Source: Clostridia bacterium (GTDB taxonomy: Bacteria; Bacillota; Clostridia; Tissierellales; Dethiosulfatibacteraceae). From it: a stretch of DNA of 37,183 nucleotides. Positions 14,096 to 35,315 of this stretch are shown here, in pieces. The stretch lies in assembly GCA_011390775.1 (NCBI GenBank), contig JAABRS010000004.1, forward strand, positions 1 through 37,183, given 5' to 3'. The translations under genes were made by a program, and so were the position numbers. Under the pieces are notes generated by a model that was not told the origin of the DNA, did no database searches, and worked only from the letters and a program-made list of their open reading frames with translations. Positions within the stretch are counted from its first letter, which is position 1; the number at the start of each line of letters is the position of its first letter.

Positions 14096-15004
14096 ATGGA
14101 AAAACTTTTCAAAGAAAAAAGAGAATTATTAGATAAACTCCCAATAGGAATTGCAAAATGCAAGTCGATAATAGAAGATAATGTAAACGACTTCATAATA
14201 GAGGATAGCAATGATACCCTATGTAAAATGGCTGAAAAAAAGAGTTATGAATTTTTGAATGAAAAATTCACAAAGGCGTTTCCTAAAGCCAAGGATTCTT
14301 TATTTGACTGGGTAAAAATATTTAATGAAGTAGCTATTACTCAAAAAGATAAGACTATTGAACAGTATTTCGAGGTATTCGAAAAATATTTAAGGATTGA
14401 GATTACTAGTATTGAAAAAGGATACTTTTATTTAATAATTGAGGACATATCTTTGAAGAAGGGATTTAATGATCTTCTTCTAGAAAAACAACTTGAAGTA
14501 GAATATTTAGAAGAAGAATTGAGAAATAAATCCAAAAAAGACTCTCTTATAGATGTATATAATCAACAAGTTATGATAAAAAAATTAAAATTCAAAATGG
14601 AAAATTTTAAAAAGGATGGAGAATCACTTTTTTGTGCAATTCTCAACATTGATAAATTTGATGATTTGAATTATAAATATACTATTGAATTTAGCGACAC
14701 AGTACTTAAAGAAGTTGGAGAAGTATTAAAAAAATCGATAAGAAAAATAGATGTCCTAGGAAGAATTGGGAATGACGAATTTTTAATTATAATGCCTAAC
14801 ATTACAATAGATATTGCTAAGATAGTAGTAAACAAAATAAAAAGTCAGATAAGGACGGATATAAAATCTCTACCCAAAGGAGAATTGACTATAAGTGGTG
14901 CGATTGAAGAGTATGAGGGGGAATCTTTAGAAGAATACTATCAAAGGTTAAAAAACAGTGTAAAGAAAGCTAAAAAAAGAGGAAGAGATACAGTGTTATT
15001 ATAA
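14096..15004 (+). CDS. GGDEF domain protein (putative diguanylate cyclase, PAS-like N-terminus)
   Basis: ORF 302 aa; DSLIDVYNQQ...NIDKFDDLNYKYT...VLGRIGNDEFLIIMPN; signature is GNDEF rather than GGDEF. Confidence 0.88.
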   Translation: MEKLFKEKRELLDKLPIGIAKCKSIIEDNVNDFIIEDSNDTLCKMAEKKSYEFLNEKFTKAFPKAKDSLFDWVKIFNEVAITQKDKTIEQYFEVFEKYLRIEITSIEKGYFYLIIEDISLKKGFNDLLLEKQLEVEYLEEELRNKSKKDSLIDVYNQQVMIKKLKFKMENFKKDGESLFCAILNIDKFDDLNYKYTIEFSDTVLKEVGEVLKKSIRKIDVLGRIGNDEFLIIMPNITIDIAKIVVNKIKSQIRTDIKSLPKGELTISGAIEEYEGESLEEYYQRLKNSVKKAKKRGRDTVLL

Positions 15005-16987: not shown

Positions 16988-17914
16988 TTATTTAGCTACT
17001 TCCTTTAATTTATTAATCAAAACAATGTTATCTTCTTTGCTTTTTACAGCTATTCTATAAAAGTTTTCATTTAGTCCTTTGTAGTTGGAACAACTTCTTA
17101 TTAGTATATAATTTTTTTCTAAAAGCTCTTTTAAGTTAATATTTTTATTAACTCTAAATAGTATGTAATTTACCTCTGAGTTGTAAACCTTAAAACCTAA
17201 ATTTGTTAATTCATGAGTAAGATATTTTCTTTGGGTTTCAATATAAGAAGTAGTTTCACTAACATACTTTTCTTCTTTAAGAGCAGATATACCACAAGCT
17301 TCAGCTGCAGCAGATATATTCCAGGGTGGTTCGTTTTTTTTCGGAAGAAAATCCATAAAGGATTAATCAATTACAACATAGGTATTAGTTTTGAGAGCCT
17401 TTTTTAATATAGATTCCATTAATTCTTTTTGAGCAATTCTTCCTGTAGGATTATTTGGATTACATATAAACAACATATCTAAGTCGGCAGTAATAAGATT
17501 GATGAAATCCTCATCTAAATCGAAATCTTTTTCTTCCTTTAGGTAGTAATAGGAGATATCTGTTTCTATAACATTTAAAGCCTCTTAATATTCTCCAAAG
17601 GTAGGAGAAGTTAAAAGAGCTTTTTGAGGTTTCAAAGAAATCACTATTCTGTAAATTGCTTCGGAAGCTCCATTGGAAATAAAAATCCAATCCTCAGAAA
17701 TATTTTCGTAATTACCAATTTCTCTTGAAAGTTTTCTTAATCTTGGGTCTGGGTACCTATCACAAGCTTCTAAAGATTTTAAGTAAGCCTGTTTAACATT
17801 CTTTCGAATTCCTAAAGAGTTAATATTTGATGAAAAATCTAGAATTTTATCTTCATCTACATTAATTTTTTTTGCAGTAGAATATATGTCCGCACCGTGT
17901 TCGTATTTAATCAT
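16988..17914 (-). pseudogene. cobD: Degraded L-threonine-O-3-phosphate decarboxylase (CobD-type)
   Basis: Single continuous minus frame of 309 codons joining track ORFs 17585..17914 and 16988..17356, interrupted by TAA at 17585-17587 and 17363-17365; HGADIYS, DFSSNINSLG, ICNPNNPTG, SFMDFLP, PPWN, RSCSNYKGL motifs; PLP-lysine segment missing. Confidence 0.88.
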
Positions 17915-18105: not shown

Positions 18106-18187
18106 AAATGAGTTAAAAGCATTTAATAATTAAATTAAATAGAATTACTGCTTTTAAAAAGACTATCCTCCCGAAAATCTTTTCGAC

Positions 18188-18334
18188 AAAATTTGGCAGG
18201 TCTCCTGACTATCGGATCATTTAAATTCTCGCCTTCCCATTTAAGCAGTGGCTTTGAGATTTATCACCTTTACAGTAGCGGGGGCTGTAACAGATTTTAC
18301 TGTTTTCCCTATTAAAACATAGTTACCAAATTTT
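18188..18334 (-). ncRNA. Cobalamin (B12) riboswitch
   Basis: Minus strand carries AGTCAGGAGACCTGCC (B12 box), GCCACTG...GGGAAGGC, CCCCCGCTACTGT; closing P1 AAAATTTGG/CCAAATTTT. Confidence 0.96.
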
Positions 18335-18470
18335 AATTTTCAATTAAAACAATTATACAAAGGTTAAAATAAATTGTCAATTAAGTTTACATACATAATT
18401 AGCTATAAATATTTAAAAAAAGCTGAAAATAAGATATAATTAAAAGTATACAAAAGAAAAGAGGTGGAAA

Positions 18471-34931: not shown

Positions 34932-34960
34932 TTGTCATATACCCATAAATATTATATAAT
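34932..34960 (+). promoter_or_regulatory. SigA-like promoter for riboswitch/surface-protein transcript
   Basis: TTGTCA(34932-34937)-N17-TATAAT(34955-34960). Confidence 0.75.
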
Positions 34961-34972
34961 AAAAATAAGTAA

Positions 34973-34986
34973 TGAGCATATGCTCA
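34973..34986. promoter_or_regulatory. 14-bp perfect palindrome, operator candidate
   Basis: TGAGCATATGCTCA, about 12 bp after the -10 element. Confidence 0.55.
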
Positions 34987-35020: not shown

Positions 35021-35098
35021 CGCAAATGAATAGGAGACTGTGATGTGTAGATGTAATTAGGACACTTATTCTACACGGAGTCAATAGTGTAACCGGCC
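35021..35098 (+). ncRNA. Cyclic-di-GMP-II riboswitch, copy 1
   Basis: GGAGACTGTGATGTGTAGATGTAATTAGGACACTT...GGAGTCAATAGTGTAACCGGCC; ACACT/AGTGT helix. Confidence 0.8.
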
Positions 35099-35120
35099 TT
35101 AGTTTTAGGTTGGTTTTTTT
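35091..35120 (+). terminator. Terminator overlapping 3' end of riboswitch copy 1
   Basis: AACCGGCCT-TAGTTTT-AGGTTGGTT followed by Ts. Confidence 0.85.
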
Positions 35121-35194
35121 GTCCAATAAATTTAATAAAAGGGGTGATTATTAGGCGATTATGGTTTAGTTTAATGAGATACAAGATGGTATTA

Positions 35195-35269
35195 GCAGAT
35201 TTTGGAGACTAAGAACTTTGGGAATCAAGAGGGCACTTTTCCTTTAGGGAGTCAATAGTGCAACCGACC
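35195..35269 (+). ncRNA. Cyclic-di-GMP-II riboswitch, copy 2
   Basis: GGAGACTAAGAACTTTGGGAATCAAGAGGGCACTT...GGAGTCAATAGTGCAACCGACC; GCACT/AGTGC helix; close to the known clostridial GGGCACUU...AGUGCAACCGACC core. Confidence 0.88.
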
Positions 35270-35289
35270 AGCGATAGCTGGATTTTTTT
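35267..35289 (+). terminator. Terminator overlapping 3' end of riboswitch copy 2
   Basis: CCAGC-GATA-GCTGG-ATTTTTTT. Confidence 0.82.
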
Positions 35290-35315
35290 ATTTTTGTATG
35301 ATTGGAGGAAATCAA

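Follow-up and report, generated by a model that had tools for sequence, protein, structure and literature searches.

Two c-di-GMP-II riboswitch aptamers sharing a rare base at a ligand-contact position lie in series upstream of a surface-protein gene in a Tissierellales bacterium

We analyzed a 37,183-nt stretch of DNA from a Clostridia bacterium of the order Tissierellales (the window), which comprises an entire contig. The last gene in the window runs off the contig end and codes for a secreted protein of the choice-of-anchor O family; the NF040591 match covers the second half of this protein. We took as the start codon the ATG that stands behind a GGAGG ribosome-binding site. The first ATG of the frame, at 35298, precedes GGAGG. 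An initial annotation of the upstream leader had placed two complete tandem c-di-GMP-II riboswitches at 35021-35289, about 170 nt apart, and the covariance model for this class (RF01786) bore out both the identification and the coordinates (Table 1). Both copies are full-length matches that exceed the RF01786 gathering score of 53.5 bits, and they start 171 nt apart on the same strand. Chance resemblance was ruled out by E-values, computed for the window, of less than 1e-9 for either copy. No RF01786 match other than these two was found in the genome assembly, whose completeness is 82%.

Table 1. Positions of the leader features and the downstream gene in the window.
Feature	Position	Strand	Basis
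Promoter-like site, TTGTCA-N17-TATAAT	34932..34960	+	Consensus scan, 11/12; sole strong site upstream of the leader
Perfect 14-nt palindrome, TGAGCATATGCTCA	34973..34986		Directly 3' of the -10
c-di-GMP-II aptamer 1, RF01786 positions 1-84	35024..35107	+	Rfam covariance model, 61.7 bits, E 1.4e-11
A at model position 36 (crystal U37), aptamer 1	35059	+	Alignment with relatives
Intrinsic terminator 1, 9-bp stem 35091-35115 from pocket AACCGGCC, T run 35114-35120	35091..35120	+	-11.1 kcal/mol
c-di-GMP-II aptamer 2, RF01786 positions 1-84	35195..35278	+	Rfam covariance model, 57.3 bits, E 2.6e-10
A at model position 36 (crystal U37), aptamer 2	35230	+	Alignment with relatives
Intrinsic terminator 2, CCAGC GATA GCTGG 35268-35281, T run 35283-35289	35268..35289	+	-8.7 kcal/mol
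Ribosome-binding site, GGAGG	35304..35308	+	Read from sequence
Choice-of-anchor O family surface protein, signal peptide, truncated by contig end	35316..37183	+	NF040591, 232 bits (cut-off 125)

Because a consensus scan of the + strand between the aptamers found no qualifying promoter-like site, both aptamers are probably carried on one transcript. The palindrome that follows the -10 is a possible operator. It occurs once in the genome assembly, and the idea of a regulon for it was dropped on that account.

The two copies are 59.5% identical to each other, and a search for direct repeats of at least 14 nt in the window gave none, which argues against a recent duplication. The pseudoknot between model positions 37-43 and 63-71 (pairs 37-71 to 43-63) is formed by seven of seven standard pairs in both copies. 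The compensatory change noted in the initial annotation falls at pair 39-67, where copy 1 has A-U and copy 2 has G-C. This pair alternates in the same way across the 135 aptamers that we gathered from surveys of the order and the class (G-C in 81, A-U in 48, mispaired in 6), and each pair of the pseudoknot is formed in at least 129 of them. Outside the pseudoknot the copies have blemishes of their own: P1 of copy 1 is weak, and P3 of copy 2 contains two adjacent U.U mismatches.

The initial annotation had assumed intact ligand pockets, and this holds for all near-invariant positions (over 85% conserved) but one. Among the contact residues, model position 12 is A in both copies, as in most relatives, and positions 38, 60 and 68-72 match the consensus. 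Position 36 is A in both. A comparison of the RF01786 model with the contact list for structure 3Q3Z (PMC7288161) gave a numbering offset of one, so model position 36 corresponds to crystal U37, which is among the ligand contacts in that list. Among the 133 relatives aligned, 128 carry U at this position. The five exceptions are the two copies from a genome of another genus in the same family (G004, described below), a probable insertion (L126), a C (L136) and a weak match (L152). MAFFT had aligned a G at position 36 in the G004 copies. We dropped this variant, since Infernal keeps U36 there and puts an A insertion between 39 and 40. We also scanned an order in which RF01786 has 305 matches with an A36 pattern that recovers about two thirds of aptamers, and a single site fitted it. 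In these alignments A36 is thus rare, common to both copies of the window and their sole deviation at a near-invariant position.

With A at a nearly invariant contact position in both copies, c-di-GMP binding is not assured. The substitution could lower affinity, alter ligand preference or be neutral. One alternative, which we consider unlikely, is that A at crystal position 37 marks a ligand-shifted or affinity- or threshold-tuned subtype of the class, in which the change from U weakens c-di-GMP binding or makes another dinucleotide the favored ligand, and pairing two weak sensors brings back tight control. Such a doublet might set a high threshold or detect a different cyclic dinucleotide. 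The rarity of the base and the role of U37 as a listed contact favor such a subtype, as does the retention of every other near-invariant position at 59.5% identity, which does not look like simple decay. Against it, the remaining conserved contact residues are all intact and the related doublet in G004 keeps U36. The presence of A36 in both copies may also reflect a single event inherited by duplication, and mutational data for U37 were not found in the literature searched. The organism itself is a further argument against a shifted ligand. We counted 26 GGDEF-domain matches in its genome, including one within the window, as well as two canonical c-di-GMP-I riboswitches, which makes c-di-GMP the natural first candidate ligand.

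The GGDEF-domain protein of the window is encoded at 14096-15004 (+) between uvrA-like and uvrC-like genes. Elsewhere in the window, a cobalamin riboswitch (18178-18345 (-), 99.1 bits) is followed on its 3' side by short ORFs at 17585-17914 (-) and 16988-17356 (-). The second of these corresponds to the C-terminal part of an aminotransferase only, and the pair may be what is left of a broken gene for cobalamin synthesis. Two c-di-GMP-I riboswitches that are highly similar to each other, both with a terminator-like stem after them, were seen at L021 and L022 (genome G000, C171 and C109); the one at L021 lies upstream of a small secreted acidic protein.

Each c-di-GMP-II aptamer of the window has a terminator of its own, as initially proposed, and both terminator-like hairpins begin within the 3' end of the aptamer that they follow. 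In our survey of the class, 120 of 135 sites have the same overlap, whereas it appears in 24% of downstream sequences after mononucleotide shuffling. The stem of terminator 2 has only 5 bp and is built with the 3' strand of P1. Unconstrained folds of the two full copies contain the terminator (-24.1 and -22.5 kcal/mol). Forcing the nested aptamer gave -11.8 and -12.8 kcal/mol, a penalty of about 10 to 12 kcal/mol before pseudoknot formation, ligand binding and the kinetics of co-transcriptional folding are taken into account. We infer that this layout is that expected of an ON switch with termination by default, the direction that had been put forward for these elements.

Two ON-type transcriptional riboswitches in series that gate the surface-protein gene by c-di-GMP are, in our judgment, quite probably what this leader encodes. 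One transcript would begin near 34967 and carry both switches. When ligand is scarce, each terminator would form with the 3' strand of its aptamer, so that polymerase would halt near 35120 and those that escape would halt near 35289. Binding of c-di-GMP would let the pseudoknot and P1 retain the 3' strand, and the terminator would give way to read-through. The choice-of-anchor O gene would be reached only after both checks, and its expression would then require high c-di-GMP, with very low leak.

It is also conceivable, but in our view quite unlikely, that just one of the two copies switches and that the other, be it the first or the second, is a decayed duplicate with a terminator that attenuates transcription constitutively. 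The mismatched P3 and short terminator stem of copy 2, or the weak P1 of copy 1, could be signs of such degradation, and both copies score below most relatives among the matches listed. Yet both lie above the curated cut-off, and each has a terminator and a full pseudoknot in which the one changed pair is compensated.

We calculated how two working switches in series would behave. For two equal, independent switches with no leak, the EC90/EC10 ratio falls from 81 to 40 and the apparent Hill coefficient is 1.19. Unequal affinities reduce this gain in steepness. A leak of 10% per switch lowers basal expression from 10% to 1% in the doublet and hardly alters the slope, and a tenfold difference in affinity combined with a 10% leak makes the gain in slope vanish. 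The sharper c-di-GMP response that the initial annotation expected is therefore real in these calculations but weak. Because calculated leak falls while slope gains little, the doublet would probably serve to keep the OFF state tight and to raise the threshold more than to make the switch sharp.

The same annotation raised the possibility of an AND gate, which is the wrong term for two inputs of one ligand. Tandem riboswitches for the same ligand have been termed pseudo-cooperative (PMC9481103), and this is the best reading of the window doublet, since both aptamers would sense one ligand. A true two-input AND gate would require that the aptamers bind different ligands. Their stems and flanks do differ, which is compatible with that idea without being positive evidence for it, but the cores and pocket residues are identical, including A36, and nothing indicates different ligands. 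The likeness of the cores led us to reject this as the main interpretation, and we give it almost no credence.

The gene downstream of the doublet was followed in other genomes. A pattern-based scan of the genome collection found five homologs only, and an N-terminal profile search of 392 genomes of the class found no homolog besides the window's own. In G004, the ortholog (62% identity over 626 aligned positions) is preceded by a c-di-GMP-II doublet with two terminators. That doublet is a 138-nt direct repeat with 96% identity, so it is recent or homogenised, whereas the window doublet is old. The four copies from the window and G004 group together in an aptamer tree (support 0.72), and 84 nt cannot separate two independent doublings from one doubling followed by gene conversion. 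More distant orthologs in two Clostridiales MAGs, L048 (54% identical) and L049 (52%), have c-di-GMP-I riboswitches upstream. The first (82-179, 54.2 bits, cut-off 35) has a terminator-like stem immediately 3' of it, and the second (1-65, 41.8 bits, same cut-off) is cut by the contig end. No c-di-GMP riboswitch was found within 3 kb upstream of the L050 homolog, and the sequence preceding the L051 homolog is limited to 159 nt. Since L048 and L049 carry c-di-GMP-I elements in the same place, c-di-GMP control of this gene appears to recur with unrelated RNA classes, and these predicted elements link a rare gene family to c-di-GMP through both. A link between choice-of-anchor proteins and c-di-GMP riboswitches was not found in the literature searched.

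Tandem c-di-GMP-II architecture is already known and is not new here. The published survey lists 59 doublets and 9 triplets, most of which come from Paraclostridium and its close relatives and precede surface anchor genes of COG4932 (PMC9481103). We also surveyed tandem arrangements of these RNAs. In the window's order, 51 aptamers from 250 genomes fall into 49 leaders, two of which are tandem (the window and G004). Another order of the class has at least nine tandem groups (matches within 500 nt on one strand), including two triplets, among about 150 matches listed of 305. Tandems are thus common in that order, in agreement with the published survey.

Two other arrangements were seen during these surveys. 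L083 (3751-3960 (-), genome G311) has a c-di-GMP-II doublet with copies 127 nt apart and a terminator-like stem after each; both copies are under the RF01786 gathering cut-off. L082 (G555, C1 1600700-1606000) has a c-di-GMP-I-GGC aptamer (336-417) followed by two c-di-GMP-II aptamers (559-641 and 644-728) that are separated by 2 nt, and the gene downstream ends in an LPKTG-type anchor. No terminator was found between or after this c-di-GMP-II pair. The 3' strand of P1 in its first c-di-GMP-II aptamer pairs with the 5' strand of P1 in the second (-11.4 kcal/mol), and the 3' strand of P1 in the second pairs with the Shine-Dalgarno region (-12.4 kcal/mol). These pairings suggest relayed control, with ligand binding to one aptamer freeing the next and then translation. 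L082 may represent a truly cooperative dual c-di-GMP-II switch; dual c-di-GMP-II switches have been listed only with separate platforms (PMC9481103).

Our analysis adds to the initial annotation the doublet on the G004 ortholog, class I riboswitches on more distant orthologs and the A36 shared by both copies, along with the U.U mismatches in copy 2. The window doublet extends tandem c-di-GMP-II riboswitches beyond the lineage of most reported cases. One surface-protein gene lies under class II doublets in two genera, and other Clostridia have class I riboswitches in front of it. This recurrence suggests that its c-di-GMP-gated expression is under strong selection. The rare contact base shared by the copies offers a test of pocket tolerance and ligand shift in class II. 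We consider the pocket substitution and the exchange of class I and class II on orthologous genes to be of most specialist interest.

We compared the window doublet to known c-di-GMP riboswitches. Its two copies have the secondary structure, pseudoknot, kink-turn G.A motif and near-invariant residues but one of the c-di-GMP-II class (RF01786, 3Q3Z). They differ from the class by A for U at model position 36, and copy 2 differs also by the tandem U.U in P3. Like the published c-di-GMP-II tandems (PMC9481103), the leader contains two full RF01786 aptamers with their own intrinsic terminators and a surface-protein gene downstream. It differs from them in the choice-of-anchor O gene, the Tissierellales lineage and the A at U37 in both copies. 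Tandem c-di-GMP-I riboswitches, of which 347 doublets and 12 triplets have been surveyed (PMC9481103), follow the same logic of multiple one-ligand switches in series with a different RNA class. Among the orthologs of the window gene, class I elements occur as single copies and only upstream of the more distant L048 and L049.
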